From contig JAMPEU010000014.1 in NCBI GenBank assembly GCA_023664865.1, positions 23,334 to 87,333 of the forward strand: 64,000 nt of DNA, in the 5' to 3' direction. Origin of the DNA: Butyrivibrio sp. GTDB lineage: Bacteria; Bacillota; Clostridia; Lachnospirales; Lachnospiraceae. Position numbers and translations under genes: made by a program. The notes beneath the pieces are model-generated. The model was not told the DNA's origin. It did not search any database and saw nothing but the letters and a program-made list of their open reading frames with translations. Below, piece after piece: positions 20,021-38,511 of this stretch (position 1 is the first letter of the stretch; every line of letters begins with the position of its first letter).

Positions 20021-21745
20021 TTACAGCTTGAATACATTCATATTCTGCTCTAAGCCGTCCGCAACGTTTTTCATTCTTGAGGCGTTTTCGGAAATATTAT
20101 ATACAATGCTGCTTACTTCCGTAACTGAGGCTGATGTTTCTTCCGTGCTTGCCGCGTTCTCCTGTGCTATTGCCGTCAGGTTTTGAACAACGTCAACTAC
20201 ATTAATCCTTGCCTCGTCCATCTTCTTTGTCTTTTCTGCAATTCTGTTTACTCCGTCTATAGAACTGTTAATTCCGGACTTAACCTCTGCAAAGATTGCG
20301 TCAGTCTTAGTAACATGCTCAATCTGCTCGTTCATGACTTCTTTTACTTCACCCATCGTCTTTACAGCCTTCTCTGAGTCGGCAATCAGCGAATCCGTAA
20401 TATTTTCAATCTGCTGCGCAGATTCATTGGACTGCTCGGCAAGCTTCTGAATCTGAGATGCAACCACGGCAAATCCTCTTCCCTGCTCTCCTGCCCTTGC
20501 CGCCTCGATACTTGCATTCAGCGACAGCAGGTTGGTTTCTTCCGCAATCGAAGTAATAAGCGACGTAGCCTCTCTGATTTTCATCGCCGACTCGTTGGTC
20601 GTATTGGTCTGTTCATAGATAATATCAATTGCCTCTTGGGCATGTTTGTTAATCTTCTCAAGCTGCATCAGCGTGGAAGTTGCCTTATCGCCGGACTCCT
20701 TCATCTGTGTGGCGTTTACAATCAGATTTTCAACTTCATTGGAAGTATCAATAACCATGTTTCCTATTAAAATAACGTTCTCCGTCGCTTTCTGCGTTTC
20801 ATCCGCCTGTGAGGTTGCGCCTGCGGAAATATCCGATACCGCTTTCTCCACCTGCTCTACCGTCGTAGCCGTTTCTTCTGCATTCACCTTCAAAGAATCT
20901 GATGCTTCCAGGATGCTGTCGCTCTGTTCTTTAAGCCCGCTTACGACTTCTATAAGCTTTGTACGAAGCACACCGACTGCACGGCTCATTTCCCCAGTCT
21001 CATCTTTACGGCTGTTTAACTTCCTTTGAATCTCATTCTCCGTAAAGTCCATATCGGCAAGCTTATTAACTATCTCGTTCACCTTGACAAGCGGAGAAGT
21101 CAACGACAATACTATAAAATATCCTGCAACTCCAAAAAGTACGACTATCCCAAAACCTACTTCCGCACTGATTGTCGTAATCCGCGTAACCGATTCCAGC
21201 ACTTCGTCTTCGTCTGCCGATATAACTAATATGTAATCGGAATTAGCATTCACATAGTAAGCCGCATACTTTTTTACGCCCTTAAAATCATATTCTATTA
21301 TCTGCGGTTCGATATTTTTCTTTCCCGCTTTAATCTCATTGACGACTCCCGTTACCACCACATTTTCAACCGGCTGTCCGATTTTGGATTCAGTCGGATG
21401 GTATAACATGGTTCCGTCTGCTGCTACCACATATGCGTAGCTGGAATCCATACCTGTGATGCCCACGCTGCCCACCATATACTGTAAAGCCTCCGGCTGC
21501 AGCATATTATTTATATCGACGCTGACTGCCGCCGCCAAATCCAGCTTTTCGCCGGTTGCCACGGTAATATCATACAAATAGTTCTTCGTCTGTTCTTTCA
21601 TGGTGTCTCTCATATTGGGAAGAATTAATAGAATCAATACCACCACAGGAATAAAAATGAACAAATCCATTGATACGGTCACCTTACCCCTGATAGACTT
21701 GAAAAAAGGAACTCGTTTCTGCTTGCTTTGTTTGCTTTGGTTCAT
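20021..21745 (-). CDS. Methyl-accepting chemotaxis protein
   Basis: The true start is the ATG at 21745 (AGGAAGG upstream), giving 574 residues. A longer open frame to 21922 exists but its first 59 codons lie in tmRNA. The protein has a helix at about 20-40, an extracellular Cache-type sensor to about 200, a second helix, a HAMP domain and a long coiled signalling domain with the hairpin-tip sequence [20 protein letters not shown]. It has no CheA, CheW or flagellar genes nearby. The ligand cannot be read from the sequence. Confidence 0.9.
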
Positions 21746-21783
21746 ATAGTGTACCTTCCTTATTGTATTTAGTTGTAGTGCAG

Positions 21784-22130
21784 TGGACCAGACGGGAGTC
21801 GAACCCGTGTCCAAAAGCCTATTCCCTGTCCTTCTACTATCATAGTCTGTTATTGCGGATTGCTCCTCATTCCCTCCCGTATCAGGAAACAGACGCCCCG
21901 ATACGCTTAGTAGCTTCATCATACGCCCACAGGCTCAAAGCTTTGCCTGTGTCGTTTCCTGCATAGTCGATGCCCGATTCTTAATGTGCAGGTGCACTAA
22001 GGCGGACAGCTGCCCTTAGGCAGCGTATGCTAAATTATCTTCAGCGTTTATATTTAGTTTTGCGATTTAACGATTCGCCATCGGATAGCTTCTCCAGCTG
22101 CAAAACCCCTGTCGAAACCATGACTGGCCC
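21784..22130 (-). ncRNA. ssrA: Transfer-messenger RNA (tmRNA)
   Basis: The 5' end GGGCCAG (22130 downward) and the 3' end CTGGTCC (to 21785) pair over 7 bases to form the acceptor stem, and the T-arm ACGGGTTCGACTCCCGT is next to the 3' end. The tag reading frame runs from the resume codon GCA at 22063 to TAA at 22016 and encodes AKLNINAEDNLAYAA, ending in the protease-recognised YAA form. The 3' CCA is not encoded: the bases are CTG, so it must be added. It rescues stalled ribosomes together with SmpB, encoded just upstream. Confidence 0.96.
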
Positions 22131-22731: not shown

Positions 22732-24873
22732 TTATACCCAATCCTCTTCTAATTCAAATACCGAAAAATCCACGCTCCTTGTATATTCGTCCACGCCGTC
22801 AACCCGTATCTTTATCTGTTCGCCGAGCATATATTTTTTACCGGTATCCTGCCCTATCATTTCGTAAGTATTTTCATCATAATAGAAATAATCTCCCGGC
22901 AGTTTTGACACATGTATCATGCCTTCCACGGTATTAGGCAGCTCCACATATACCCCCCATGCCGTAATCCCTGAGATGACCCCATCATATACTTCTCCGA
23001 TATGATAACTCATATATTCAGCCTTCTTCAATTTATCTGTCTCGCGCTCAGCCTCATCGGCACGCCGTTCTGTCTCTGACGAGTGCTTAGCCACTTCGGG
23101 CAGTTTAGCCTGATAATGCTCTATTCGCTTATCTTTAAGTCGTCCGCGAAGCTGCTCCTTGATAATTCTGTGTATCTGCAAATCAGGATAACGCCTTATC
23201 GGAGATGTAAAATGACAATAATATTTACACGCAAGCCCGAAATGCCCCGTACACTCCGTAGTGTATTTAGCCCTTTTAAGGCTTCTGAGCGTCAGCCTGT
23301 TTATCAGCATTTCCTCCGGCGTTCCCTCTATTTTATCCAGTAGTTTCTGTATCTCCTTAGGATGCACCTCGTCCTGCGCCATTTTGATATGATAGCCGTA
23401 ATTATTAAGGAAAGTGGAGAGTTTCATAATCTTCTCCGCATCCGGATTGTCATGGGTACGATATACGAATGGCAGCTCCAGCCAGAAAAAATGCTGCGCC
23501 ACTGTCTCATTGGCAATAAGCATAAAATCCTCTATTATCTTCGTAGCCACATTCCGCTCATACGGCTTGATTTCCAGCGGACGCCCTTCCTCATCAAGTA
23601 TTATCTTGCTCTCCGGAAAATCAAAGTCAATCGAGCCTCTGGCATGTCTCTTTTGCCGCAGAATCGCCGCCAGTTCAGCCATCAGTTCAAACATCGGCAC
23701 AAATTCCTCATATTCCTTACTCTCGGCCTCGTCCTTATCTTCCAGAATTTTCTTCACGCTGGTATAAGTCATTCTCCTGTCCACGCGTATAACGCTCTCC
23801 ACAATCTGATAATCTACGACGCTGCCTTTATTATCAATCGTCATAAGACAGCTTAAACTGAGCCTGTCCACGCCTTGGTTAAGCGAACAGATTCCGTTGG
23901 AAAGCTTCGGCGGAAGCATTGGAATCACGCGGTCTACAAGATATACGCTTGTGCCTCGCTCAAGCGCCGCCCAGTCCAGAGCCGAGTTCTCCTGTACGTA
24001 ATTGGATACGTCTGCGATATGGACGCCAAGCTTATAAAATGCGCCCTCCTTGGATACGCTGACCGCATCGTCCAAGTCTTTAGCATCCTCGCCGTCTATC
24101 GTAACCATCTGCACATCGCGCAAATCCATACGCCCCACCGTATCCGCTTCTGAGATTTCATCGGGAATACGCTGCGCCTGATTCATGACTTTTTCCCCAA
24201 ACTCCACAGGTAAGTCAAAACCCTTCACTATCGACATTATATCCACGCCGGATTCGCCCATGCGCCCTAAGATTTCCACCACTTTTCCTTCCGGCTTATG
24301 CCGCTCGTCCCCATAGCTTGCCAGCTCTACCACTACTTTATGCCCATCCGCAGCGCCTTTAGAACAGCCCTTAGGCACAAAAACATCCACGGCAATCTTG
24401 CCATTGTCCGGAATCACGAAACCGAAATTGGCAGACTGCTCATAAGTCCCCACTATCTGTTTTAACCCATGCTCCAAAATTTTACGCACTACGGCTTCCT
24501 GCCTTTTGCCACGCTTGCCGGGCAATAACTCCACCTGTACCTTGTCCTGATGAAAAGCATTGTTCACCATATCCTCGGGAATATATAAATCTTCTTCCCT
24601 GCCTTCTATTTCCACAAAGCCAAAGCCTTTAGAATTGCCGATAAAAGTCCCTGTGAGAAAACGCTCATCAGGCTTCATATATCTGCCCTTAGATGTAATC
24701 TGAAGTTTCCCCTCTTGCAAAAGGACGTTCAGCACCCTGCGGAACTCTTCCCTGTCGTCTCCCGAGACCTGCATAAACGTCGCAAGCTCCTTTTCCTTCA
24801 TCGGCACATACAAATCATCTTCCACAAGTTCGCATATTAATTTTTTACGTTTTTCAAATAAGTCTTTATCCAT
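22732..24873 (-). CDS. rnr: Ribonuclease R
   Basis: RNase R is a processive 3'-5' exoribonuclease that acts on structured RNA and on tmRNA-tagged messages. The 713-residue protein has an N-terminal winged helix, two cold-shock domains (about 70-225), the RNB catalytic domain with GEDAKDLDDAV near 255-268, and a C-terminal S1 domain (about 630-710). Linkage with smpB and ssrA fits its role in trans-translation. Confidence 0.95.
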   Translation of the reverse strand: MDKDLFEKRKKLICELVEDDLYVPMKEKELATFMQVSGDDREEFRRVLNVLLQEGKLQITSKGRYMKPDERFLTGTFIGNSKGFGFVEIEGREEDLYIPEDMVNNAFHQDKVQVELLPGKRGKRQEAVVRKILEHGLKQIVGTYEQSANFGFVIPDNGKIAVDVFVPKGCSKGAADGHKVVVELASYGDERHKPEGKVVEILGRMGESGVDIMSIVKGFDLPVEFGEKVMNQAQRIPDEISEADTVGRMDLRDVQMVTIDGEDAKDLDDAVSVSKEGAFYKLGVHIADVSNYVQENSALDWAALERGTSVYLVDRVIPMLPPKLSNGICSLNQGVDRLSLSCLMTIDNKGSVVDYQIVESVIRVDRRMTYTSVKKILEDKDEAESKEYEEFVPMFELMAELAAILRQKRHARGSIDFDFPESKIILDEEGRPLEIKPYERNVATKIIEDFMLIANETVAQHFFWLELPFVYRTHDNPDAEKIMKLSTFLNNYGYHIKMAQDEVHPKEIQKLLDKIEGTPEEMLINRLTLRSLKRAKYTTECTGHFGLACKYYCHFTSPIRRYPDLQIHRIIKEQLRGRLKDKRIEHYQAKLPEVAKHSSETERRADEAERETDKLKKAEYMSYHIGEVYDGVISGITAWGVYVELPNTVEGMIHVSKLPGDYFYYDENTYEMIGQDTGKKYMLGEQIKIRVDGVDEYTRSVDFSVFELEEDWV

Positions 24874-25302: not shown

Positions 25303-26496
25303 CTATTTTCCGCTCTTACGATGAGATACTACATCGAAGATAACGGCAAGCAGCAGAACGCCGCCTTTTACGACATACTGCCACGAATCACCGATACCCA
25401 TGATAGACATGCCCATATTGATAACGCCAAGTAAGAGCGCGCCGATGATAACGCCGGGAATCGTACCGCTGCCGCCGTATGCAGACGCGCCGCCGATAAA
25501 GCAGGCGCCGATGGCGTCCATTTCAAAAGAACTGCCGGTAGCTCCGTTCACTGAACCTATCCTTGCCAGACAGAGCAGACCGCATAAACCGGCGAGAAAC
25601 CCCATACTTGCATAGGCTATAAAATAAACTTTATTCGTATTAATACCGGAAAGCTGCGCCGCTTTCTCATTACCGCCTACCGCATAGAAATAACGTCCGA
25701 ATGCAGTTTTAGAAGTAATAAAGTGATAAATCAGGCAAATCGCCACAACCCATACAAGCATAACGGAAATGCCTTTATACTGGCAGAGTAAATAACAATA
25801 AAACAACAAAGCCACGGAAATAACTGCGCTTCGCCCAAAATCAGCAAATGCGCTGTTTTGCCTATAGCCTTTTTTTGCCTTATTTTTACGGGAAGAAATT
25901 GTGCTGTAGAAAATAAAGGCAGCCGCCAATGCGCCGATTATAAGCGGAGATAAAATACGTGCATCCGTATCCAGTAGGGGAATTTTAATATAGGCAGTAA
26001 AAATATTTAAAAATTCCGTATCCTGAACGGCTACCGTCTTACCATCCAGTATCAGACGGCCAAAACCACGGAAGATAAACATACCGCCGAGCGTAGTAAT
26101 AAAGGGTGGGATACGCACATAGCCGATTAAATACCCCTGCCATACGCCGGCTAAAAGGCCTACAAGGATACAGAGCGGGATTGCCAGAAAAATGCCAACA
26201 CCGTGGTTGGTAATTAAAACTGCGGCAATACCGCCGACCATACAGATAACCGAGCCGACGGAAAGGTCAATGTTGCCGCCGGTTAAGATACAAAGCAGCA
26301 TACCGCACGCCATAACTAATACATAACCATTTTGAATAAGCAGATTGGACATATTCTGCGCATATAAAAGCCGTCCGCCCGTCAGGAAATAGAATAAAAT
26401 AAATACAATGACAAGGGCGATAACCATGCTGTTTTTTGTTAAAAATGCTCCCACGTTAGATTGGCTTACGTCCATATTTTCTTTGTCAGTTGACAT
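25303..26496 (-). CDS. mmsB: Sugar ABC transporter permease (MmsB/XylH type)
   Basis: The 397-residue polytopic protein is a BPD_transp_2 permease with about ten helices, including the family stretch CILTGGNIDLSVGS and GGASAYGGSGTIPGV. It would form the membrane channel with the ATPase encoded 20 bases upstream. It is the last gene of the nine-gene unit. The family imports pentoses and hexoses; the exact sugar is not known. Confidence 0.9.
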   Translation of the reverse strand: MSTDKENMDVSQSNVGAFLTKNSMVIALVIVFILFYFLTGGRLLYAQNMSNLLIQNGYVLVMACGMLLCILTGGNIDLSVGSVICMVGGIAAVLITNHGVGIFLAIPLCILVGLLAGVWQGYLIGYVRIPPFITTLGGMFIFRGFGRLILDGKTVAVQDTEFLNIFTAYIKIPLLDTDARILSPLIIGALAAAFIFYSTISSRKNKAKKGYRQNSAFADFGRSAVISVALLFYCYLLCQYKGISVMLVWVVAICLIYHFITSKTAFGRYFYAVGGNEKAAQLSGINTNKVYFIAYASMGFLAGLCGLLCLARIGSVNGATGSSFEMDAIGACFIGGASAYGGSGTIPGVIIGALLLGVINMGMSIMGIGDSWQYVVKGGVLLLAVIFDVVSHRKSGK

Positions 26497-26516
26497 TATA
26501 ATAAGTCTCCTCTCAA

Positions 26517-28052
26517 TTAAACCTTAGCGTTTACGATGTAACTCATGATTTTTTCCTGTGTAGCGCCTTTAGCATTAAGTTCCCCGCAAAGTTCCCCTTC
26601 ATTCATAATATAGATGCGGTCACACATACCGATTAATTCCGGCATTTCAGAGGAAATCATAATTACTGCCTTACCGTCTTCTACCATTTTATTAATCAGG
26701 CAGTAAATATCATATTTGGCGCCGACATCAATACCGCGGGTTGGTTCGTCCAAAATCAAAATATCCGGCTCCGTAAACAGCCACTTGCCAAGCAGCGCCT
26801 TTTGCTGATTGCCGCCTGATAAGTTACCGGCCTTCTGTTCGATTGACTGTGTTTTTGTCCCCATCGCCTCTGTCATATTTTCCGCGGCGTTCTGCTCGGC
26901 AGTCGTGTCAATAATGCCTTTCGAGCAGACCTTATTCAAGTTCGCAAGCGTTGTGTTGAAACGGACAGATTGAGCAAGAATGAGTCCATTGGCTTTTCTG
27001 TCTTCTGTTACATAGGCTAATTTATGTGAAATTGCCTGCTGCGGATTTTTCAAATCAACCTTTTTGCCGTCCAGATATAACTCGCCTGTGATATTGCTGC
27101 CATAGCTCTTGCCGAAAATCGACATGGCAAGCTCTGTACGTCCTGCGCCCTGTAAGCCAAAGAAACCTACGACTTCACCTTTATGCACTTTAAAAGAAAT
27201 ATTTTTAACGGCAATTTTTTCATGATAAAGCGGGTGGTGAACTGTCCAGTCCTTCACTTCAAATCCGATTTCTTTACATATTTTATGCTCACGCTTCGGA
27301 TAGCGGTCGTCCATCGGACGTCCTACCATTCCTTTTATAATGCGGTCTTCGCTAAATTCGTCAACGCCCTTTACAAGGGTTTCAATACAGGCGCCGTCCC
27401 GTATAATGGTTGCCTTATCTGCGCAATAAATAATTTCATTTAATTTATGGGTAATAATAATGGAAGTCAGTCCGTTTTTCTTAAATTCCATTAATAAATC
27501 CAGAAGCCTTTCAGCATCTTCGTCGTTCAGTGAAGAAGTCGGTTCATCTAAAATCAGCAGTTTTACATTTTTGGAAAATGCCTTTGCAATTTCTACAAGC
27601 TGCTGCTTACCTGTACCTATATCTTTGATTAAAGTCTGTGCGGAGTCGTTTAACCCGACCTGGCGCATATGCTTTTCCGCTTCGTTATAAGTTAAGTCCC
27701 AGTCTATAATTCCAAGTTTATTCTTTTTCTCATTTCCTAAAAACATATTCTCGCCAATTGTAAGAAGCGGAATTAGGGCAAGCTCCTGATGAATAATGAC
27801 AATGCCTTTTGCCTCGCTGTCCCTAAGCGTCTTAAAGCAGCATAATTCTCCATTATAATATATTTCTCCCATATAAGAGCCATACGGATAAGTACCCGAC
27901 AACACATTCATCAGCGTAGATTTTCCTGCGCCATTTTCACCGATTAAGGCGTGGATTTCACCCCGCTCCACGCTCATACTTACATTATCCAGCGCTTTTA
28001 CCCCCGAAAACTCTTTGGTAATAGATTTCATTTCCAAAATAATGTCAGCCAA
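26517..28052 (-). CDS. mmsA: Sugar ABC transporter ATP-binding protein (MmsA/GguA type)
   Basis: The protein has two ABC domains in tandem. The first has GENGAGKST and LILDEPTSSLND; the second has a degenerate P-loop (GLQGAGRTEL) but an intact signature LSGGNQQK and LILDEPTRGIDVGAK, as usual for monosaccharide ATPases. The start chosen is TTG at 28052, 8 bases after an AGGAGG that overlaps the stop of the binding-protein gene, giving 511 residues; ATG at 28031 is the alternative. An extension to 28121 would lie inside the upstream gene. Confidence 0.9.
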   Translation of the reverse strand: MADIILEMKSITKEFSGVKALDNVSMSVERGEIHALIGENGAGKSTLMNVLSGTYPYGSYMGEIYYNGELCCFKTLRDSEAKGIVIIHQELALIPLLTIGENMFLGNEKKNKLGIIDWDLTYNEAEKHMRQVGLNDSAQTLIKDIGTGKQQLVEIAKAFSKNVKLLILDEPTSSLNDEDAERLLDLLMEFKKNGLTSIIITHKLNEIIYCADKATIIRDGACIETLVKGVDEFSEDRIIKGMVGRPMDDRYPKREHKICKEIGFEVKDWTVHHPLYHEKIAVKNISFKVHKGEVVGFFGLQGAGRTELAMSIFGKSYGSNITGELYLDGKKVDLKNPQQAISHKLAYVTEDRKANGLILAQSVRFNTTLANLNKVCSKGIIDTTAEQNAAENMTEAMGTKTQSIEQKAGNLSGGNQQKALLGKWLFTEPDILILDEPTRGIDVGAKYDIYCLINKMVEDGKAVIMISSEMPELIGMCDRIYIMNEGELCGELNAKGATQEKIMSYIVNAKV

Positions 28053-28065
28053 AAGAAATCTCCTC

Positions 28066-29193
28066 CTAGTCGGTGGCGGACAGATATCCGTCGGCGCCCA
28101 TTGTGTATAAACCTGTATCAACTAAATCCTGCAGATTATCCTTGGTAATTACATTCGGCACAAGCAGGAAAGAAGGACATTTGTGTCCTGCCGATGTTTC
28201 ATAAGAGTCTGTGTCGTATGCACATTCAATTCCAAAAGTATCGATTAAAGCTGCGTCAATAGTATCGCCTGCAATAATGGTCTGCGCGAGAGCTAATGTA
28301 ACAACCGCCTCATTGCTTACGTTCTTATACACAGTCATTGTCTGAATACCGTCAACGATATTTTTCAGGTTAGCCTCATCGCCGTCCTGACCTGTAATAA
28401 GTACAGAGTTAGAACCTGCATAGTCGGAGGTAACAGCCTGTGCAACGCCCAGTGCGGTAGAGTCGTTAGAGCAAACCCATATATCAAGCTGTGTTCCGTC
28501 CGCATAATAGGAAGAAAGCACGTTCTGCGCCCTTTCAAGAGCCGTATCGGTATTCCATTGCGCTGTAGCAACCGTATCAAAGTCCGTCTGTCCGGAAACA
28601 ACATTTAAAGTCCCCTTGTCGATATAGGGTTTTAGCGTATCCATAGCGCCGTTATAGAAATATCCTGCGTTATTATCGGCAGGATCGCCTGCGGTAAATT
28701 CTATATTGTAGACTTTATTTCCCGCATTAGCAAGGTCGAGCGTATCTACAACGAATTGTCCCTGAAGTCTGCCAACCGTATAATTATCGAAAGATACATA
28801 ATAGGAAACCGCATCGTTCAAAATCAGACGGTCGTAAGAGATAACCGGGACATCTGCCTGCGCAGCTTCATTCATGACGGTATTCAACGCCTCGCCGTCT
28901 ATGGCGGCAACAATGAGTAAATCAACGCCGTCTGCAAGCATATTCTGGATATCATTTACCTGTCTTCCGGAATCATTGTCTGAGAAAGTAAGAATAGTTT
29001 CATAGCCTGCTGCCTTGAACTTGTCGTTAAGATATGCTCCGTCACGGTTCCAACGCTCCAGAGATTGTGTCGGCATGGAAATGCCGATTTTACCCGCACT
29101 GTCTGTCGTAGTACCGCCATTTAAACCACAGCCTGCCAATAAAGCGGCAGCCAAAATAAGACTTAATAAAACGCTAAGTAATTTTCTTTTCAT
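28066..29193 (-). CDS. chvE: Sugar-binding lipoprotein of the ChvE family
   Basis: The 375-residue protein has a lipoprotein signal peptide with lipobox LAGC and a periplasmic-binding fold of the ribose/galactose type (KIGISMPTQSLERWNRDGAY, SYDRLILNDAVSYYVSFDN). It resembles ChvE/multiple-monosaccharide binding proteins more than RbsB. It would deliver sugar to the permease encoded downstream. ChvE is also known in other bacteria as a ligand-loaded input to sensor proteins, which is of interest given the signalling genes upstream. Confidence 0.9.
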   Translation of the reverse strand: MKRKLLSVLLSLILAAALLAGCGLNGGTTTDSAGKIGISMPTQSLERWNRDGAYLNDKFKAAGYETILTFSDNDSGRQVNDIQNMLADGVDLLIVAAIDGEALNTVMNEAAQADVPVISYDRLILNDAVSYYVSFDNYTVGRLQGQFVVDTLDLANAGNKVYNIEFTAGDPADNNAGYFYNGAMDTLKPYIDKGTLNVVSGQTDFDTVATAQWNTDTALERAQNVLSSYYADGTQLDIWVCSNDSTALGVAQAVTSDYAGSNSVLITGQDGDEANLKNIVDGIQTMTVYKNVSNEAVVTLALAQTIIAGDTIDAALIDTFGIECAYDTDSYETSAGHKCPSFLLVPNVITKDNLQDLVDTGLYTMGADGYLSATD

Positions 29194-29215
29194 TTTCTTT
29201 TAATCCTCGCAATCG

Positions 29216-30982
29216 TTATAGTTTTTTCGTAAGCTTTAAAACATTATGCCCGCCTTCATAAACATACTCCACAGCATCCATAAAATTTTTTACAATATGA
29301 ATACCCATACCGCCTTCCTCGCGGGAATTTTCCATCTCTGCCGCATCCGGAGCGGCTTTAACTGTCGGATCGAAAGGCTCGCCGTTATCCGTAAACGTAA
29401 GGCACACCTGACTTTCTTCCACATTGCATGACACTTCTGCGCTTTGCGCCTTGCTGTAACGTACAATATTGGAAAAAATCTCGTCCACAGCAATATTCAG
29501 CTTGATAATAATTTTGTGCGACACATGGTTTTTTTGCAAAACGTCTTCTACAAAAGAGGAAACCTCCGCCATGCTCTCCAGCGTGGGAGCGACCGTAACA
29601 GAGTTTATAAAAAGCAGCTTCAAATGAAGCATAGTCATATCGTCGAACTGCGGCGCGTCCCCCACAAATCCATCTACATCTGCTTTCACGTCAGTACACA
29701 ATTCCTTCGCAACTTTTCCCTTAGAGCAATTTAGTACCGTAAGAAGCCTTTCATTACCATACATCTGCTGCCTTGCATTAGTCGCTTCCGTAACCCCGTC
29801 CGTATACAGAAAAATTTCATCACCCGGCACAAAATCCGTCTCCCCTATGCGATAATGAAGATTGCCGAACTCTCCAAGTACAAAACCGGGTTTGAACTTC
29901 AAAAATGTAAATTCCCCGCCATTGTGACGAAGCAGAGGCGGATTGTGTCCTGCGTTCGCAAAAAAGAGCTTCCCTTCCTTTATATCCGCAATCCCCATAA
30001 AACAGGTTACAAACATTTCCGCATCATTATTCTCACATAGCTGGTTATTCACCTTTTCTAACGCCTTATCAGGTGAAAGCCCCGCCTGTGCCGCGTTATT
30101 TAACAGATTTTTCGCCACCATCATAAACAGCGCAGCCGGAACTCCCTTGCCGGATACATCCGCTATCACAATCGCAAGCCGCGTTTCGTCCACTAGAAAG
30201 AAATCATAAAAATCGCCGCCTACTTCCTTTGCCGGCGTCATTGACGCGTAAATATCAAACTCCTGCCGTTCCGGAAAAGCGGGGAAAATACAAGGCAGCA
30301 TAGATGTCTGTATGCGGGTTGCCACATCAAGCTCTGCCGCTGCGCGCTGACGCTCCTCATTGTCCTTTGCCTGTTTCTCCAAAAGATTTCTCGTCCGTCC
30401 CGCAATCGTCATGCAGACCGCGTGCGCACCGATTAAAATCAAGGTTCTTGGAAGGACAAAAAACAGGGTGTTCTCCAATAAAAGCCTGCCCGTAATGACA
30501 CGCTCGCCGGAATAATAAGGCGCATCTAAAAACGTCTGATCCCACTCTCCGAAGTACATAGCTATATAGATTGAGGCAGAAAACAATACCACTGACAAAA
30601 TCAGTACAAACCGCGTCAGCTTTTTGGAATAATAGTGACAGCTTAAAATAAGCGGCAGCATCCACGCAACCACCATATGCTTTGAAATTGCACAGGACAG
30701 TATGAATATTCCGGTAATCGAACAGCACATAACCGCATATTTTACCCATGCCCTATCCAACTTGCAAATGAAAGCGGGAAGAATGGAAAATGCTAAAAAT
30801 ATGGGCATTGCCGTATTCATGATTACTTTGGGCGTGATAAAAATCCCGACCATATCCAAAATCCAGCACAATATGGCAACCAATGAAACTATTCCGATAC
30901 ATCTGGCAGCATACCGGTTCGCTTCCCACTCATTCTCAAGGAACAGATTGTAATCAGCCTGCTGCCCTGCATGCTTCTCCAT
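29216..30982 (-). CDS. Membrane SpoIIE-type phosphatase fused to an RsbW-type ATPase domain
   Basis: The 588-residue protein has six or so membrane helices in residues 27-195, a short coiled linker (200-225), a SpoIIE/PP2C domain (about 235-455) and a histidine-kinase-type ATPase domain (about 460-588). Phosphatase motifs are AKEVGGDFYDFF, IADVSGKGVPAALFM, NAGHNPP and YTDGVTEA. The ATPase part has an intact N-box (VDEIFSNIVR, N505), DNGEPFDP (532-539) and GGMGIHIV (558-565), so it may act as a kinase. The likely substrate is the STAS protein encoded immediately upstream. Having both enzymes on one chain could make it a two-way switch. The N-terminal membrane part has no recognisable ligand domain. 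Confidence 0.88.
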   Translation of the reverse strand: MEKHAGQQADYNLFLENEWEANRYAARCIGIVSLVAILCWILDMVGIFITPKVIMNTAMPIFLAFSILPAFICKLDRAWVKYAVMCCSITGIFILSCAISKHMVVAWMLPLILSCHYYSKKLTRFVLILSVVLFSASIYIAMYFGEWDQTFLDAPYYSGERVITGRLLLENTLFFVLPRTLILIGAHAVCMTIAGRTRNLLEKQAKDNEERQRAAAELDVATRIQTSMLPCIFPAFPERQEFDIYASMTPAKEVGGDFYDFFLVDETRLAIVIADVSGKGVPAALFMMVAKNLLNNAAQAGLSPDKALEKVNNQLCENNDAEMFVTCFMGIADIKEGKLFFANAGHNPPLLRHNGGEFTFLKFKPGFVLGEFGNLHYRIGETDFVPGDEIFLYTDGVTEATNARQQMYGNERLLTVLNCSKGKVAKELCTDVKADVDGFVGDAPQFDDMTMLHLKLLFINSVTVAPTLESMAEVSSFVEDVLQKNHVSHKIIIKLNIAVDEIFSNIVRYSKAQSAEVSCNVEESQVCLTFTDNGEPFDPTVKAAPDAAEMENSREEGGMGIHIVKNFMDAVEYVYEGGHNVLKLTKKL

Positions 30983-31006
30983 AATTTTATCTTCCTCCCG
31001 CCGCCA

Positions 31007-31306
31007 TCACAGCTCAATCGTCAGTATGTCAAAGGAGCCTGTCACCTCGAATACTTCCAGCACATCTTCATTTGCGCCCCTGATTACCATTTCCCCCTGC
31101 CTATCCATTGCCTTCTGCGCAGAAAATATTACGCGGAGTCCTGCGGAAGAAATGTACTCTAACTCTGAAAAATCCATAATCAGCTTTTTCACGCCTTCAA
31201 GTGATTTCTTTAATTCCGCATCCAGTTCGGGAGCCGTTGTCGTGTCAAGCCTTCCCACAGTCTTAATGGTCATTTCATTTCCGGCAGTCGTTGTTGTAAT
31301 CGTCAT
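31007..31306 (-). CDS. STAS-domain anti-anti-sigma-type protein
   Basis: The 99-residue protein is a single STAS domain: GRLDTTTAPELDAEL, then LIMDFSELEYISSAGLRVI with the serine pair at the usual phosphorylation site. The start at 31306 has GGAGG 8 bases upstream; the ATG at 31321 is itself part of that ribosome site and is unlikely. Such proteins bind RsbW-type kinases when unphosphorylated. The phosphatase/ATPase gene follows after 24 bases, and the 5'-nucleotidase gene precedes it. No sigma factor gene is present in the unit. Confidence 0.9.
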   Translation of the reverse strand: MTITTTTAGNEMTIKTVGRLDTTTAPELDAELKKSLEGVKKLIMDFSELEYISSAGLRVIFSAQKAMDRQGEMVIRGANEDVLEVFEVTGSFDILTIEL

Positions 31307-31323
31307 TTTCTTTTCCTCCATTT

Positions 31324-33012
31324 TTACTTTTCGGATAACACTTTAATGCGTCCCTGTTCTTTTCTATATTCGTCCCCGATTGTTCCGCCTAAATGCTCCT
31401 TTATGTATGTGCTTAAAACCTGATAGTCTGACATTCCCTCGTCAATTATGAGCTGGTTATCCGTGAACATATTCAAGCCGTCCCCGCCTTCCTTTAACAG
31501 ATAGTTGTGAGACGCCACTTTATACATCTTATCAGGCTCGATTGCCTGATAGCTTCCGTCTTCTCCAAGCACTTCCACATCTTTTACGCGCCGTTCTCCC
31601 TCCACAGATACAAACATGCCGTTTTCGTCTGTTATAACGGAGGACTCTACCGATAAATCAACGGTGAAGCGCAGTCCCGACACCTGCTGAAAGCCGCCGT
31701 TTTCTCCAATGGCGTTTCCCGCCTCTGAAACCTCAGCCATCATCTGTGAACATGACATTTCCAGACAATCCAATATCTCCTGTCCGCTTGCCCATACCAT
31801 GCAAAGCGTATTCCCATACGGGTGTACCGCAATTATGTCTCCATAAGTGATATCGCCTGCCTCAATATCCGCCCTGATACCGCCGCCATTGATAAAGGCA
31901 ATGTCCGCCCCGGCAACCTCCCTGTACGCATCTGTGCAGAAATCTCCCAGATTTGTTTCCCTGCTGCGAACAAGCCGCACGCCATCTGAACCCGCAATCG
32001 TCAATGCCACGCTGCTGCTGCTGCCTATTATCTCGTTAAGCGTAGCTTCATAGCGTAACTGAATATCTTCCACGCAGGAAGCCATTTCATCATCTTCTTT
32101 GGGATATCCCATAATCAAAGTGGACACCATTTGCCCTTTAGGCGTAATCATAAGCTGTCCGATTGCGCCAAACTTTTCTCCTGTAGAAGATAAAAGCACT
32201 AACTCTCCTTCCTTGTTTTTAACATATTCACAGGGAATTGTGCTATGGGAATGTCCGTCCAGCACGGCATCCACGCCCGTAGTCCCCATAATCAAATCAA
32301 CCGAGCGGAAGGGTTCTGAGACCTCGTCCGTTCCCAGATGAGTAAGTAAAACCACATAATCTGCGCCTTCTTTTAAGCAGTCGTCAATGCTTTCCTGCAC
32401 CGTGGCATAAAATGACTCTTCATCTTCTGCACTAAATCCATATACATACTCACCGTTCTCGTCCATAAATACAGACGGCGTAGAAGAAAGGATACTTTCC
32501 GGCGTAGACACCCCGATAAATGCTACTTCCACATTCCCATATTTCTGAATAGCATAAGGTTTTACTGCGGAAAGCTTATTTTCCCCGGTCCCGGAATAAG
32601 TGATATTGCAGCCAAGATACTCTGCATCTGACAATTCCAGCAATCTGGCAAGCTGATCCATGCCATAGTCAAACTCATGGTTGCCAAGCACCGCATAGTC
32701 GTAGCCGACCTTATTCATAAGCTCCACGGGATATTCCCCGTCCGACACGGTGCCGAGGGCATCTCCCTGAATGGCGTCGCCGCAATCCACCAGCGTAACG
32801 TAAGGCGAATTCGCCTCAAGAAATTCGCTGTAAGCCGTAAGCTTAGCATACCCCATATTCCCGTCCACTGCACAATGGACGTCATTGGTATAAAGGATAT
32901 AGATATTACTGTCTCCTTCGTTCCGTACACTGCCAAAAAAAGCTGACAGCCCGACTGCCAATAGAATGGCCGCACATATGCACAGTATCGTAAGTTTCTT
33001 TTTTTTGCTCAT
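31324..33012 (-). CDS. Membrane-anchored 5'-nucleotidase / metallophosphatase
   Basis: From the ATG at 33012 (AAAGGAGACGG upstream) the protein has 562 residues. An N-terminal helix (about 6-26) anchors it outside the cell. The metallophosphatase domain has YTNDVHC, GDAIQGD, GNHEFDYG, LTHLG and GHSH; the C-terminal 5_nucleotid_C domain has GGGIRADIEAGDITYGDI. The family removes phosphate from extracellular nucleotides or UDP-sugars. Its place between a transporter gene and a STAS gene suggests nutrient scavenging tied to the same signal. No LPXTG motif is seen. Confidence 0.9.
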   Translation of the reverse strand: MSKKKKLTILCICAAILLAVGLSAFFGSVRNEGDSNIYILYTNDVHCAVDGNMGYAKLTAYSEFLEANSPYVTLVDCGDAIQGDALGTVSDGEYPVELMNKVGYDYAVLGNHEFDYGMDQLARLLELSDAEYLGCNITYSGTGENKLSAVKPYAIQKYGNVEVAFIGVSTPESILSSTPSVFMDENGEYVYGFSAEDEESFYATVQESIDDCLKEGADYVVLLTHLGTDEVSEPFRSVDLIMGTTGVDAVLDGHSHSTIPCEYVKNKEGELVLLSSTGEKFGAIGQLMITPKGQMVSTLIMGYPKEDDEMASCVEDIQLRYEATLNEIIGSSSSVALTIAGSDGVRLVRSRETNLGDFCTDAYREVAGADIAFINGGGIRADIEAGDITYGDIIAVHPYGNTLCMVWASGQEILDCLEMSCSQMMAEVSEAGNAIGENGGFQQVSGLRFTVDLSVESSVITDENGMFVSVEGERRVKDVEVLGEDGSYQAIEPDKMYKVASHNYLLKEGGDGLNMFTDNQLIIDEGMSDYQVLSTYIKEHLGGTIGDEYRKEQGRIKVLSEK

Positions 33013-33040
33013 CTTCCGTCTCCTTTGACACATTTGTATT

Positions 33041-35776
33041 CTACAAAGAAATCTCTAAGCGGTTCTTGCCCCTCTCGTATCCATAACGGCTTTCCCTGAT
33101 TACAGATTTTACCAGCTTAATGGAAATCTCGTCGCCGCTTTCTAAGGGATTGTACGGTGCGCCGCCCCAGACAAAGCTCATAGTCAGCGCGCCGTCCGCC
33201 TCGTAATACTGTACGGATATCTCCAGCATATAATTCCCTTTCCGGTTCGGAATGATATTAAGCGCACAAACCTCTTCAAACACACGCCTTAAGTTTTCCG
33301 TCTGCCGCTGGCTCAAGAACTGCTTTTCCCCAAAGTTCCTTAACTGCTCGCTCATGGCGATAAAATCATATTCAGGAGAGGAAATTGTAAACGTTAATGC
33401 CTTCAAGCGCTTCACAAAAGCCCTCGTCTGCTCCCGTTTAGGGGAATCAAAAATTTCCTCCGGCGTGCCTTCCTCGTATATTTCACCCTGATCCATATAA
33501 AAAATCCGCGTGCTGACGTCCCTTGCAAACTGCATTTCATGGGTAACAATCATCATGGTAAGCCCGCCTGCCGCCAGTTGTCTGATAACGGAGAGAACTT
33601 CGCCTACCATCGTCGGATCTAACGCGCTCGTCGGCTCGTCAAACAGCACAATTTCCGGTCTCATGGCAAGCGTCCTTGCAATAGCCACCCTCTGCTTCTG
33701 CCCGCCGGAAAGCTCGTCCGGATAAGAAAGGGCTTTCTCCGCCAGTCCTACCGTTTTGAGCAAGTACATTCCGTATTCATACGCTTCCTGCCGTCCCTCG
33801 CCCTTTAAGAGCGTCGGCGCCAGCATGATATTCTCAATGACGGTCAGATGTGGGAAAAGGTTAAAGCTCTGGAATACCATGCCCATCCGCTCTCTTACAG
33901 CGTTCAGGTTCGTTTCCTTTTTCCCCATGTCCTCGCCGAATACGCAAACCTTACCGCCCGTCGGCTCTTCGAGCCGGTTCAGGCAGCGCAGGAAGGTGGA
34001 CTTTCCCGTGCCGGATGGACCGATAATGGTAATGACCTCTCCCCGCTTAATCTGCGCATTTACATCTTTTAACGGCGTTGCGCCTATAAATTCCTTCTTT
34101 AAATGCTCTACCGTAATCAGCTCAGACGCCTCATACGACGCGGTTTCCTCTTTTTCCACATATACTGACATCACATCTACGCCTTTAGGGTACGCCCTCG
34201 GCTTCCGTTTCACGTCAAGCTTAAGCTCAACCCTTCCAATTAAGAAGGCAAAAATTACAGAAATCAAAAAATATATCGCAGCAGTCGCAAGCAGCGGGAA
34301 AAACGCCTCATAGGTACGGCTGCGGATAATATCCCCCGCCTTCGTCAAATCCTCAATCGAAATATATCCCACGATAGAAGTCAGCTTCAACATGGTGACA
34401 AACTCACCCCTGTAAATAGGAAGAACGCTCCTTACCGCCTGCGGCAGAATAATACGGATAAAAGTTTTACCCCTGCTAAAACCAAGCGCCGTAGCCGCCT
34501 CCCATTGCCCTGCATCTACCGTCTCTATGCCGGTATTCAAAATCCCCGCGACTGCCACTGCAAAAATCAGGGAAAAAGAGATAACCCCGACCGTCACAGG
34601 CTCAATCTTAACCGAGGCAAACACTACAAAATAAATAATCATCAGCACGACAAGGCTTGGGATACCCTCCATCAGCCTGCATATCACCCTTGCAAGCCCC
34701 GCAAGGAAACGGTTCTTACAGCGCAGCCACAGACAGAGCAAGAATCCCAGAACCGTCCCGAAAATTCCGGCAAGCACAGTAATCTCAAGCGTAACTAAAA
34801 GCCCGTCCACAATCAGCTTCCAGCGGTTTTCACGCACGAAAGTCTTTTCAAAGCTCTGAGCTATTCCTGCAAAAATGCCCATTCCAGCACTCGCGCCCGT
34901 CTCCGCGGCAATTGACGCCGAAGGGCTGTTTAAATCAAGCGTCTCTGATACTCCCTCTAAACTTTCGGTTCTGCATAAAAAAACCGTGCCGCCCGAATAA
35001 TAAGACTCACAGAAATCCACGCTCTCGGCGCGTTCCGCAGTGACAATGATACAGCATGCCGCAATATCCGCCTTATCCTGCTGTATAAACGGAACGAGCG
35101 AGGCAAATTTCGTTTCAATCAGTTCCACGCCCATATCAAGCCTGTCCGCAATTATAAGCACAAGCTCCGTCTCAAAGCCGGACGGATTGCCGTCGCTTCC
35201 TATGTACAACATCGGCATATTCGTTCCGTCAAAGGCGAAGCGCAGCGTCCCATTCGCGCGTTCGGATAAGTTATACTGCGTCCAGTCAATCTGCATGGCT
35301 TCTTCGTCGCCGTTTAGCCATTTTTCCGCCAGCTTGTCAATGACTCCCTCTGACTTAATCTCACGGATAACGCCGGATACCTTATCAGTCAGCGCACTCC
35401 CCTTTTTCAACATCATGCTATACGCATCACTTGATATAATCTCCGGAAACATTGCAAACTCATCCGGTCTTTGTGCAGCAGCCATCTGCGCCACCGGACT
35501 GTCTAAGGCGAGCGCCTCCACATCACCTTTTTTCAAAGCCTCAAGCTGCGTCGTAAGGTCGTCATAGTAATTGTAGTTAAGGCCTTCAAACTTATCTCCC
35601 AACACCTGGTCATAGAGCGAACCCGTAAGAACGCCGATAGTTTTCCCGCTAAAATCTGAGAACGACCGATAAACCTCTGTTTCCTTTTCACTGCCGGCAC
35701 AGCCTGTAAATGCCATGACAACAAACAGCATAAGCCCGATTAGCCATGCCGCCTTCTTCATTCTTTTTTGTCTCAT
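33041..35776 (-). CDS. One-piece amino-acid ABC transporter (binding domains, permease, ATPase) with a C-terminal RsbW-like domain
   Basis: One 911-residue chain holds a whole polar amino-acid importer. It has a lipobox (FTGC, C26), two half-binding segments (about 36-160 and 176-270), a HisM-type permease (about 320-516, with [17 protein letters not shown]), and an ATPase (about 553-790) with GPSGTGKST (586-594), LSGGQ (689-693) and FDEP (712-715). The last 115 residues do not belong to the ATPase. They resemble the RsbW fold: an N-box-like [10 protein letters not shown] (N840) and GGAPYNPLE where DNGxPFxP is expected, but the Asp and the glycine-rich lid are lost. I infer a non-enzymatic docking domain for a STAS protein. 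Ribosome site AGGAGG; 15 bases after the chemoreceptor gene. Confidence 0.87.
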
Positions 35777-35791
35777 TTTCCCTATAACCTC

Positions 35792-37795
35792 CTATATCCT
35801 GAACACCCTCATTCTCTCCATCAGTTTCTTTGCTTCCCGCTCTAATTCCTTCGCGTTACGGGCTACAATATCACTGTCCTGAGTTACCGTTTCGGTATAA
35901 CCTTCCAGTTCCTGCGCCGACTGAGTAATCCGCTCCATTTCCTGCACTTGATAATCAGCGATTTTGTGCATATTTCCTGCAACTTCTTCTGTCCTTCCGA
36001 CCAATTGCACCATGCGCTCCACCGCAGTATCCGTCTCTCCCACCTTTTCGTACACCATATCAAAAGTTTCCCTGTTCGCACCGACCAGCTCCGCGCTTGT
36101 CTTTACCTCCACAACACTTTCCTTCGTCTTGGCAATGGCGCGCTGCATAGCCTCCTTAATCTCCGACGTCAATCTGGAAATATCATCTGCCGCGTCACCG
36201 CTATTTGCTGCAAGTTTTCCAATCTGGTCCGCTACAACCGCAAATCCTTTTCCTGCCTCACCCGCACGTGCCGCCTCAATAGAAGCATTTAAAGACAGAA
36301 GATTCGTTTCCTCCGCAACATTGACAATCATCTCCACCATACTGCCAATCTGCTCCATCGCAGTATCCGTCTTCATCATCTGCTCCGCAAGGGAAGATAT
36401 GCTTTCTTCAATATGGCGCATACTTTCGCTGACACGCTCCGCCGCTTCTCTTCCGTTCACCGAGATATCCACCGTCTGACGCATAACTAAACCTGCGCGC
36501 CTGCCCTCTGAGTCCGCCTCTTTGATAACTTCGGAAAGCATCTCCATCTGTTCGGATACTCCCCTAGCCGCTTCAGACAGTTCTTTTACAATCTGTCCAA
36601 GAGCTTCCATTGCTTCCGACTGGCTTTTAGAAGAACCGGTCAGTGAGCCTGACACATGGCCATTCTCCACCGACTGACGCTCCAGCCATTGCGCGATACC
36701 GATAATATCGGATATCGTCGTGCGCATCTGTGTCAAAAATTCCTGCATATGCGCACTCATAACAGCAATCTCATCTTTTCCTTTAACTTCAACCGTCTGT
36801 GAAAAATCACCTTGCGCTACATTCTGTATGACATCTGTAATGCGCCCTACCGGTTTTACAACGCGGTTCATCAAGTTAAATGTCGCAAAAATCAGCACTG
36901 CCGCAGCAGCCGCAGCAATCACTATCATAATTATCTCCAGCCGATGTAATCCCGCAAGTGCCTCGCTTCTGGACATATAGCTGACTAAAACCCAATCCGT
37001 CCCGTCAATTTCATTCAAACATACAAAATAACCCTGCACAGAAAAGAAATCATCTGCACCGGCTTTCTGATTTCCAATTTCCTTCCCGATAGCTGCATAC
37101 AATTCATTCAAGTCCGAATCAGAAAGCGTGCGCGCTATCATATCGGTATTCGGATGCGCAATAATCGTCCGGCTTTCCTTTGTCACTAAGAACGAGCTGA
37201 TTCCGCCGCTTCCCTCAATATTCGATACAACCTCAGAAAGATAATTCAGATATACGTCTACGGCAAGTACCCTGACTGCATCAGTATTTCCCATGCGCAC
37301 AGCAGCGCTGACGCAGATATCGCCTGTCTGTGAATCGTAATACGGCTCCCCAAAAGCAATCTCCTCATTTTCCTTTCCGTCAAGATACCAATCCCGTTCC
37401 GTCAAAACCCAGTCGTCACCCGGCACCCAACCTGACGCATCTAAATACACTCCCCGGTCATCACCCATATACAATCCCACCGGATAAGCATCACTCTTTT
37501 CAAAAGAAGTCTCCATAAATGCAAGCACCTCTTCATCGTTAGCAAATCCGCCTTCTTCAATCGTATCCTTATAGACCTGAAGCTCGCCAAAAATCCGATC
37601 TGTCCATGCGTAAATATCACCTGCACAGACTTTTGCATTAGCGGCAAGATTCTGCTCTGAAATACTTGTAATCATTTTTCGTGAAAGTCCGAAAAACGTT
37701 ATAATAATAACCAGCACAATAGGAATAATGACCACGATTAATTTTGTACGGATTCCAAACGTTATGATTTTCTTCTGCCCATCTTTATTGTCCAT
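35792..37795 (-). CDS. dCache-domain methyl-accepting chemotaxis-like sensor
   Basis: The 667-residue protein has membrane helices at about 17-36 and 283-305 around an extracellular dCache domain, then HAMP (about 305-360) and a methyl-accepting signalling domain with the tip [20 protein letters not shown]. In the dCache domain R134, W136, Y137, Y152 and D180 follow the spacing of the amino-acid-binding dCache motif known from receptors such as PctA; the first motif Tyr is replaced by W129. So amino acids are the likely ligands. The gene is 14 bases after a LytTR regulator and 15 before an amino-acid transporter, which suggests local signalling and not flagellar taxis. Confidence 0.9.
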
Positions 37796-37809
37796 GAATT
37801 TTTATCTCC

Positions 37810-38511
37810 TTATCGTTTCTCAAATACCTTATCAAACAAGGTTTCCCGATATCTTTTTCTAACCTCATCATAGTAGCGTCTGGATATCGGTATTCTCTCT
37901 CCTGCAATTATCAGATCCGTACCATCCATTCCTTCCACATGGTTTAAGTTGACGATAAAACTCTGATGACACCGCATGAGGATTTCCCCGCACACCTGCT
38001 TCTCCAAATCACTCAGCTTTCCCGCGCTTTCCTTCATACTCCCGTCCATACAATATATAGACAGCGTATGTCCCCTGCTGCTGATATAACGAATTTTTCC
38101 ATAGGGAACTGAACCGACCTTCCCGCGCCATGAGTATGAAAGCTTCTTCCCGCCGTCACAATCAAGGTTTTTCTGCACCTTCAGAAGAAGTTTATTCAAA
38201 GCTTCCTCCTGTACAGGCTTAATCAGATATTGTATGGCATATAAATCATAGGCCTCCCTGTAAAATTCATTACTGCTGGAAATAAAGCAGATGACCGCTT
38301 CTTCATTGACTTCCCTAAGTCGTTTAGCAAGTTCAATCCCGTCCATAGAGTCACCCATAAAAATATCCAGCAGGTATAAATCATATGGTGCCTTGCCCAT
38401 GTCTGACAAAAGGCTGTCCGCACCGGAATACACATTAACCTCATGCCCCGACAGGCATTTTTTAAGAAACAACGCATCTTCCGCACAGTCGTCGCAGACC
38501 GCTATCCGCAT
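37810..38511 (-). CDS. LytTR-family response regulator
   Basis: The 233-residue protein has a receiver domain (1-115) with acidic D7/D8, the phospho-acceptor D49 (YLLDIFM) and K98, and a LytTR DNA-binding domain (about 130-230, with HQSFIVNLNHVEGM). It is the AgrA/VirR type. No histidine kinase gene is next to it; the kinase must lie elsewhere, or the regulator responds to another partner. It heads the nine-gene unit, with AAGGAGGG before the ATG and paired LytTR-type boxes upstream, so it probably activates its own operon. Confidence 0.9.
   Translation of the reverse strand: MRIAVCDDCAEDALFLKKCLSGHEVNVYSGADSLLSDMGKAPYDLYLLDIFMGDSMDGIELAKRLREVNEEAVICFISSSNEFYREAYDLYAIQYLIKPVQEEALNKLLLKVQKNLDCDGGKKLSYSWRGKVGSVPYGKIRYISSRGHTLSIYCMDGSMKESAGKLSDLEKQVCGEILMRCHQSFIVNLNHVEGMDGTDLIIAGERIPISRRYYDEVRKRYRETLFDKVFEKR

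Follow-up and report, generated by a model that had tools for sequence, protein, structure and literature searches.

The nine-gene run and its amino-acid importer

We analysed 64,000 nucleotides of Butyrivibrio sp. (assembly GCA_023664865.1, contig JAMPEU010000014.1, forward-strand positions 23,334 to 87,333; hereafter the window, in whose own numbering its features are given) and focused on a run of nine genes that brings together an amino-acid importer (gene 3), a free STAS protein (gene 5) and a SpoIIE-type phosphatase (gene 6). The original prediction, made from the sequence alone, had described nine same-direction genes, and open reading frame (ORF) calling on the window returned nine minus-strand ORFs of the families it named, running from 38511 down to 25303 (Table 1). 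Several of its descriptions needed to be extended: the "dCache sensor" does contain a dCache domain but is a whole methyl-accepting chemotaxis protein, the "phosphatase/ATPase" was confirmed as a SpoIIE protein and also contains a GHKL kinase domain with intact motifs, and the "all-in-one" transporter has the expected families plus an extra C-terminal domain that went unmentioned.

Table 1. Features of the nine-gene run, in order of transcription; positions are those of the window
Feature	Positions	Strand	Evidence
Gene 1, response regulator, receiver and LytTR DNA-binding domain, 233 aa (amino acids)	37810..38511	-	Pfam Response_reg 3.9e-13, LytTR 2.9e-16
Gene 2, methyl-accepting chemotaxis protein, dCache-HAMP-MCPsignal, 667 aa	35792..37795	-	Pfam MCPsignal 1.1e-28, dCache_1 5.4e-12, HAMP 5.9e-11
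Gene 3, all-in-one amino-acid ATP-binding cassette (ABC) importer, 911 aa	33041..35776	-	Pfam SBP_bac_3, BPD_transp_1, ABC_tran; translation
Gene 3, aa ~38-273, solute-binding part, halves permuted	34958..35665	-	Alignment to PDB SBP3 chains
Gene 3, aa 553-790, nucleotide-binding domain, GlnQ/TcyN type	33407..34120	-	ABC_tran 4.6e-34; TcyN/GlnQ NCBIfam models E 1e-83 or better, below cut-offs
Gene 3, aa ~795-911, predicted degenerate RsbW/SpoIIAB-like GHKL domain (HATPase_c_2, pseudo anti-sigma), key feature	33044..33394	-	Family profile, not the window copy alone
Gene 4, extracellular 5'-nucleotidase/UshA family, 569 aa, one N-terminal hydrophobic segment	31324..33033	-	5_nucleotid_C 6.1e-36, Metallophos 7.3e-11; hydropathy
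Gene 5, free STAS protein, 104 aa, YISSAGL at aa 56-62	31007..31321	-	STAS 3.7e-16; ant_ant_sig above its cut-off; motif
Gene 6, membrane SpoIIE-type PP2C phosphatase with intact GHKL kinase domain, 588 aa	29216..30982	-	SpoIIE 4.3e-54, HATPase_c_2 2.2e-23
Gene 7, ChvE-type sugar-binding lipoprotein, 375 aa	28066..29193	-	NCBIfam ChvE 2.2e-98 (329.5 bits, cut-off 460)
Gene 8, GguA ATPase, likely start TTG 28052	26517..28052	-	NCBIfam GguA 2.4e-237 (788 bits, cut-off 810)
Gene 9, GguB permease, 397 aa	25303..26496	-	NCBIfam GguB 6.2e-127 (424 bits, cut-off 450)

The raw gaps between successive ORFs are 14, 15, 7, 2, 24, 22, -56 and 20 bases. Internal starts were judged better by eye for the nucleotidase (ATG, codon 8), the STAS protein (ATG, codon 6) and GguA, for which TTG 28052, preceded by AGGAGGAG, replaces the raw ORF start at 28121; with these starts the three odd gaps become 28, 17 and 13 bases, close to the 14 to 28 bases first predicted, a range that the raw values 7, 2 and -56 do not fit. 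For genes 7 to 9, ChvE, GguA and GguB are the best models by far, yet all three matches lie below the NCBIfam equivalog cut-offs.

Genes for a MoxR/VWA pair and for an LRR_5 protein precede the run, and no gene was called in the 463 bases ahead of gene 1. A riboswitch or structured RNA heading the unit was rejected, the sole Rfam match at gathering score in the window being the transfer-messenger RNA (tmRNA). Downstream follow secG-rnr-smpB-ssrA; gene 9 ends 67 bases before the secG start with no terminator-like site found between them, and the transcript may continue past gene 9 into secG. A second chemoreceptor-type ORF (MCPsignal) was called at 20021-21922 on the minus strand; it starts within the tmRNA gene of the same strand (21783-22130), so its true start must be further in.

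Gene 3 reads, in order, as a lipoprotein-like signal, a permuted solute-binding domain of the SBP3 family, a transmembrane domain (TMD; BPD_transp_1), a GlnQ-like nucleotide-binding domain (NBD) and a GHKL-like tail; the binding, transmembrane and nucleotide-binding domains place it with the GlnPQ/PAAT importers, its substrate class being assigned from sequence families. In alignments to PDB chains, the first half of the solute-binding part matches residues ~107-231 of an SBP3 chain and the second half residues ~8-102, and the N-terminus is co-linear with residues 103-325 of the tandem GlnP domains in 6h30, as if a duplication had been followed by loss of the outer halves. The importers of relatives have the same permuted order, in one or two copies.

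An RsbW-like tail and a partner switch without a sigma factor

Beyond the end of the NBD (~aa 790), gene 3 has ~117 extra residues. A search with its last 127 residues found the domain in 22 of 299 genomes of the family, either at the end of all-in-one importers of 900-1150 aa or in NBD proteins of ~365 aa that adjoin a gene for the binding protein and TMD. A single free-standing copy of 135 aa was seen at another locus (L047, 9583-9990, minus strand), two genes from an unrelated ABC ATPase. Full-length alignment of 25 tail copies revealed invariant E50, E51 and G88, and Pfam HATPase_c_2 matches nine of the 25 (best 7.5e-6). Profile comparison gave a clearer picture: the 25-row profile aligned with 13 SpoIIE/RsbW domains (hhalign 97.6%, E = 4e-12, score 72; 20 column-shuffled controls ≤ 16.0, reversed control 15.7) and with the gene 6 kinase domain (95.9%, E = 5e-9). 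The profile also retrieved the gene 6 kinase domain when searched against its own genome (E = 2.9e-5), and in the family it matched many further ORFs of ~580-600 aa and 140-170 aa. These results mark the tail as a homologue of HATPase_c_2 domains of the RsbW/SpoIIAB type.

The motifs of the ATP site have been lost from the tail. At the position of the G1 Asp, the 25 tails have Tyr (20), Trp (4) or Cys (1) and never Asp; the N-box Asn is retained in four, and the G2 glycines are mostly replaced by D/N, E/D and S, whereas all 13 SpoIIE/RsbW domains keep the N-box Asn, the G1 Asp and the G2 glycines. An active kinase was therefore rejected, and the tail looks like a binding domain, the working kinase apparently being the C-terminus of gene 6.

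That C-terminus has its N, G1 and G2 boxes all present. The rest of gene 6 comprises hydrophobic segments within aa 23-194 and a phosphatase domain (PF07228) carrying GGDFYDF, DVSGKG, YTDGVTEA and FDDMTML, the stretches that hold the metal-binding Asp residues. Gene 5 has the phosphoacceptor motif expected of a switch protein, and the STAS proteins near tailed importers keep the form Y[ILV]SS[AM]GL in 21 of 21 cases.

Partner switches are known from textbooks for their control of sigma factors, and a few with different targets have been described. The original prediction had remarked that no sigma factor accompanies the partner-switching proteins here, and this was borne out: none of the 33 Sigma70_r2 matches in the genome falls on the 87,333-base contig of the window, so that a hidden sigma factor at the locus was rejected. 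In contrast, another contig of the same genome (C103) has STAS, HATPase_c_2 and sigma factor genes at 35596, 35070 and 34761, within ~1.1 kb. A second set of SpoIIE, HATPase_c_2 and STAS genes lies on contig C92 (150353-155372), with the nearest Sigma70_r2 match of that contig ~70 kb off.

Conserved neighbours and related domains on other transporters

We compared the neighbourhoods of 36 tailed and 64 tail-less NBDs in 26 genomes of the family (100 NBD rows at ≥197 bits, in tables transcribed by hand from profile-search results). This comparison excluded one 397-aa row (G392:C141), ~20 weaker rows of mostly 320-375 aa, STAS ORFs >200 aa, the weakest SpoIIE rows (E > ~1e-16) and the genomes G168 and G241. 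Both STAS and SpoIIE genes lay within 10 kb of 5/36 tailed NBDs but of 0/64 tail-less ones (p = 0.005, computed, like the other neighbourhood p-values, without regard to kinship among loci); counted singly, STAS was found near 6/36 and 0/64, and SpoIIE near 6/36 and 1/64. With the window left out, 4/35 tailed NBDs still had both (p = 0.014). Similarly, the tailed importer occurs in 16 of 77 genomes of the genus, and SpoIIE lies within 10 kb in 8/16 of these versus 0/31 tail-less TMD-NBD pairs, the controls being rows that resemble separate TMD and NBD genes (p = 4e-5); without the window and its near-copy the count is 6/14 (p = 4e-4). Tailed importers thus adjoin STAS and SpoIIE genes more often than tail-less ones do. 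SpoIIE-domain proteins are present somewhere in all 28 family genomes searched, and STAS domains in 27.

Loci were then read individually. In the family sample 31 loci were read over up to 20 kb; L047 and L052 among them do not hold a tailed NBD, and several copies from G327 and G392 were excluded. A pattern scan of named genomes gave 44 loci. Copies of counted contigs were dropped (L060, L068 and L075 among the named loci, L117-L124 in the genus), and the simple ORF caller gave no tailed ABC ORF at 2/31 family and 4/41 named loci. The 37 non-duplicate named loci with a tailed ORF include Blautia schinkii DSM 10518 (L058), Clostridium sp. Marseille-P3244 (L065) and members labelled Oscillospiraceae. 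STAS accompanies the importer at 13 of them, SpoIIE at 13 and both at 10; the other neighbours are a purine-type permease (15), a tailed SDF symporter (14), a 5'-nucleotidase (8), a tailed MATE transporter (5), ChvE (3) and a chemoreceptor (1). The order varies, from importer-STAS-SpoIIE (L072, and L073 with a second STAS gene and a nucleotidase farther along) to SpoIIE-STAS-importer (L054). The locus of Blautia schinkii DSM 10518, a cultured relative, carries the set, and directly behind its tailed importer lies a gene that joins a STAS domain to an APH-type phosphotransferase (L058, 10488-11675).

The full set of nine fared differently. All nine genes, tightly spaced, were found at L053 (JAMPHY010000018.1, tail identity 96%), which is the same locus as L117 of genome G444. 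Among the 15 other genus genomes with a tailed importer, the near-identical G444 was the only one with the chemoreceptor and co-oriented ChvE-GguA-GguB genes; in the same-genus genome G060 the importer is present and the other eight genes are absent within the 20 kb read, and at L055 and L056 a ChvE gene lies ~7 kb distant on the opposite strand. A conserved nine-gene unit was therefore rejected, as the grouping recurs only in L053/L117. The conserved core is the tailed importer with STAS and SpoIIE, often joined by the nucleotidase, and the other genes are lineage-specific additions. At L142 of another genome (16295-19899), relatives of GguB, GguA and ChvE lie co-directionally near a MATE-GHKL gene, a hint that the company of the sugar transporter may recur. 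The comparison of gene neighbourhoods in relatives that had been proposed as a check thus turned against the whole unit, which is scattered, while the idea that parts of it work together kept some ground, the importer being linked to the switch by its GHKL tail and by the enrichment of STAS and SpoIIE.

The symporters and MATE transporters at these loci carry domains of the same kind. The ~530-aa neighbours are SDF (Na+:dicarboxylate) symporters with ~125 extra N-terminal residues, whose profile matches the importer tail (95.2%, E = 3e-8) and the SpoIIE/RsbW set (95.1%). The C-terminal domain of the MATE transporters matches the importer tail (98.5%, E = 4e-15) and is recognised by Pfam HATPase_c_2 at L065 (1.3e-4), L128 (3.4e-5) and L126 (1.2e-16); compared directly, the SDF and MATE domains match weakly (27%, E = 7e-4). 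In a tree, the ABC (97/93), SDF (100/99), MATE (89/73) and SpoIIE/RsbW (98/99) domains form one group each, with a joining order that is not settled (82/78). A search of the window's own genome for an SDF-type relative gave no match. A lone Peripla_BP_4 lipoprotein of ~379 aa, perhaps a sensor or the binding protein of a lost transporter, is encoded upstream of the tailed SDF symporter at L074 (4850-5989) and its relatives.

The MATE-tail profile has matches in 48 of 299 family genomes, some rows being SpoIIE/RsbW domains such as that of gene 6. Twenty MATE loci, a non-random sample picked by hand from the strong end with one per genome, all encode MATE and GHKL in one ORF (20/20); STAS is near six of them, SpoIIE near eight and both near four. 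A motif search found the N-box Asn and the G1 Asp both kept in 15/21 MATE tails, and intermediates between live and dead domains therefore exist. All three kinds of fused transporter occur together at L128 (genome G478), where one direction holds a response regulator, a GHKL sensor kinase, SDF-GHKL, ABC-GHKL, a 5'-nucleotidase, a purine-type permease, STAS, MATE-GHKL, a GH3 enzyme, SpoIIE and an RsbW-like kinase. GH3-family (acyl-amido synthetase-like) enzymes adjoin SpoIIE or the tailed importer at L065 (3678-5345), L127 (5410-7146) and L128 (3002-4672). At L151, a 526-aa ORF combines STAS and RsbW-type HATPase matches in one protein beside SpoIIE and a free STAS gene.

A transporter as the proposed output of partner switching

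We consider it somewhat more likely than not that the unit is, at its core, a partner-switching circuit that acts on a transporter in place of a sigma factor. Gene 6 would sense some signal through its N-terminal membrane part and set the phosphorylation of the gene 5 STAS protein, the PP2C domain removing the phosphate and the intact GHKL domain adding it. Unphosphorylated STAS would then dock on the ATP-dead RsbW-like tail behind the gene 3 NBD, and this docking would alter transport. Since NBDs form pairs, as do GHKL domains of this type, a tail dimer beneath the NBD dimer could decide whether the importer cycles. The LytTR regulator (gene 1) and the chemoreceptor (gene 2), outside the conserved core, may add transcriptional and behavioural responses, respectively.

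A broader proposal has, in our judgement, an even chance of being right: that in gut Clostridia, above all Lachnospiraceae, partner switching is a general post-translational control of transport. RsbW-like domains, ATP-dead on ABC and SDF transporters or partly intact on MATE transporters, would have been attached to at least three unrelated transporter superfamilies. Several transporters of a locus could answer at once to a single STAS protein, whose state would be controlled by an RsbW-type kinase and a SpoIIE-type phosphatase.

Several observations weigh against the transporter as output. Searched by itself, the tail copy in the window matches no Pfam model at E ≤ 1, and a known Pfam domain was accordingly rejected as a description of this copy alone. 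When PDB sequences were searched with the tail profile, RsbW ranked first at a non-significant E of 0.37, with hedgehog chains next. The neighbourhood p-values overstate the evidence by ignoring kinship. Moreover, within a reach of ~12 kb, 24 of 29 tailed loci in the family sample are without SpoIIE and 25 of 29 without STAS; STAS could reach the importers of such loci only in trans, and otherwise their tails would have to serve another role.

One such role is that of a stand-alone regulatory or dimerisation domain, as in MetN C2 and ModC, which would sense a small molecule or hold the NBD dimer together with no part played by the partner switch. The many tailed loci without adjacent STAS or SpoIIE and the loss of the ATP site, and with it of kinase function, would both fit, and fused regulatory domains are described as common among transporters in the available part of a review (PMC10710835). 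We nevertheless think this unlikely: the known role of the superfamily is STAS binding, tailed importers adjoin the switch genes more than tail-less ones do, and the pairing recurs with MATE transporters and SDF symporters.

It is also improbable, to a similar degree, that the operon merely carries bystanders, with STAS and SpoIIE acting on a target elsewhere, such as another HATPase_c_2 protein, and the importer, nucleotidase and sugar transporter only sharing their transcript. The genome does have two other STAS-HATPase pairs, on C103 with a sigma factor adjoining and on C92 with SpoIIE ~3 kb off, and the nine-gene grouping is not conserved; but sharing a transcript leaves unexplained both the RsbW-like tail and its STAS/SpoIIE enrichment in other genomes. 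Least credible of all is the self-contained nutrient-sensing and uptake machine of all nine genes, sugar transporter and chemoreceptor included, that was first proposed, since the tight spacing in the window and in near-identical L053/L117 stands against a chemoreceptor at 1/72 and ChvE at 3/72 (two of them on the other strand) of the tailed loci outside the window, in the stretches read.

If the transporter is indeed the output, the cell may tune nutrient uptake itself with a partner switch, and the fused RsbW-like domain would be a plug-in receiver through which transporters take up Ser-phosphorylation signals. This would account for orphan STAS and SpoIIE genes in gut Clostridia and allow amino-acid, dicarboxylate and efflux traffic to be matched quickly to an outside signal. 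The question is also testable, since each element can be named: the partner, the domain on which it would dock and the site of modification.

The locus is a variant of partner switching in which no output sigma factor is encoded nearby. It shares with SpoIIE-SpoIIAA-SpoIIAB-sigma F and RsbU-RsbV-RsbW-sigma B the PP2C phosphatase, the GHKL kinase and a STAS protein with a conserved Ser motif, and the importer tail is by sequence homologous to the SpoIIAB/RsbW domain itself. Unlike those switches, it has no sigma factor on the contig, its kinase is fused to the phosphatase, and an extra, ATP-dead GHKL domain sits on a transporter. As an importer, gene 3 resembles the GlnPQ type in having its binding domain fused to the TMD but differs in the permuted halves of that domain, the fused NBD and the GHKL tail. 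We found no transporter with an RsbW-like receiver beside STAS and SpoIIE genes in the literature searched, which is weak evidence that such a fusion is new, given the sparse coverage of subscription journals.

SiaA and SiaB of Pseudomonas aeruginosa are the phosphatase and kinase of SiaC. In the sections of the SiaABCD study at hand, the system likewise combines a SpoIIE-type phosphatase with a small STAS-type partner that acts on an enzyme and not on a sigma factor, and phosphorylation of SiaC at T68 blocks its binding to SiaD (PMC8457831); that target, a diguanylate cyclase, is contacted by way of a helical stalk and is no GHKL-bearing transporter. MetN C2 and ModC likewise place behind the NBD an extra domain able to gate transport, but theirs bind substrate for trans-inhibition and differ in fold; in its accessible text the same review has no occurrence of STAS or anti-sigma domains and gives LacS as the sole case of a bacterial transporter controlled by direct phosphorylation (PMC10710835). 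A parallel on the transporter side is MlaFB, where, as far as the available excerpt of the study goes, the STAS protein MlaB regulates an ABC transporter through the NBD MlaF and other STAS/ABC pairs in the PDB are not reported (PMC7367683). MlaB contacts MlaF directly without a GHKL domain and is not known to be phosphorylated. In SiaC-SiaD as in MlaB-MlaF, it is the unmodified partner of STAS fold that binds and sustains activity; on this analogy we favour, with little confidence, activation of the importer by unphosphorylated STAS.

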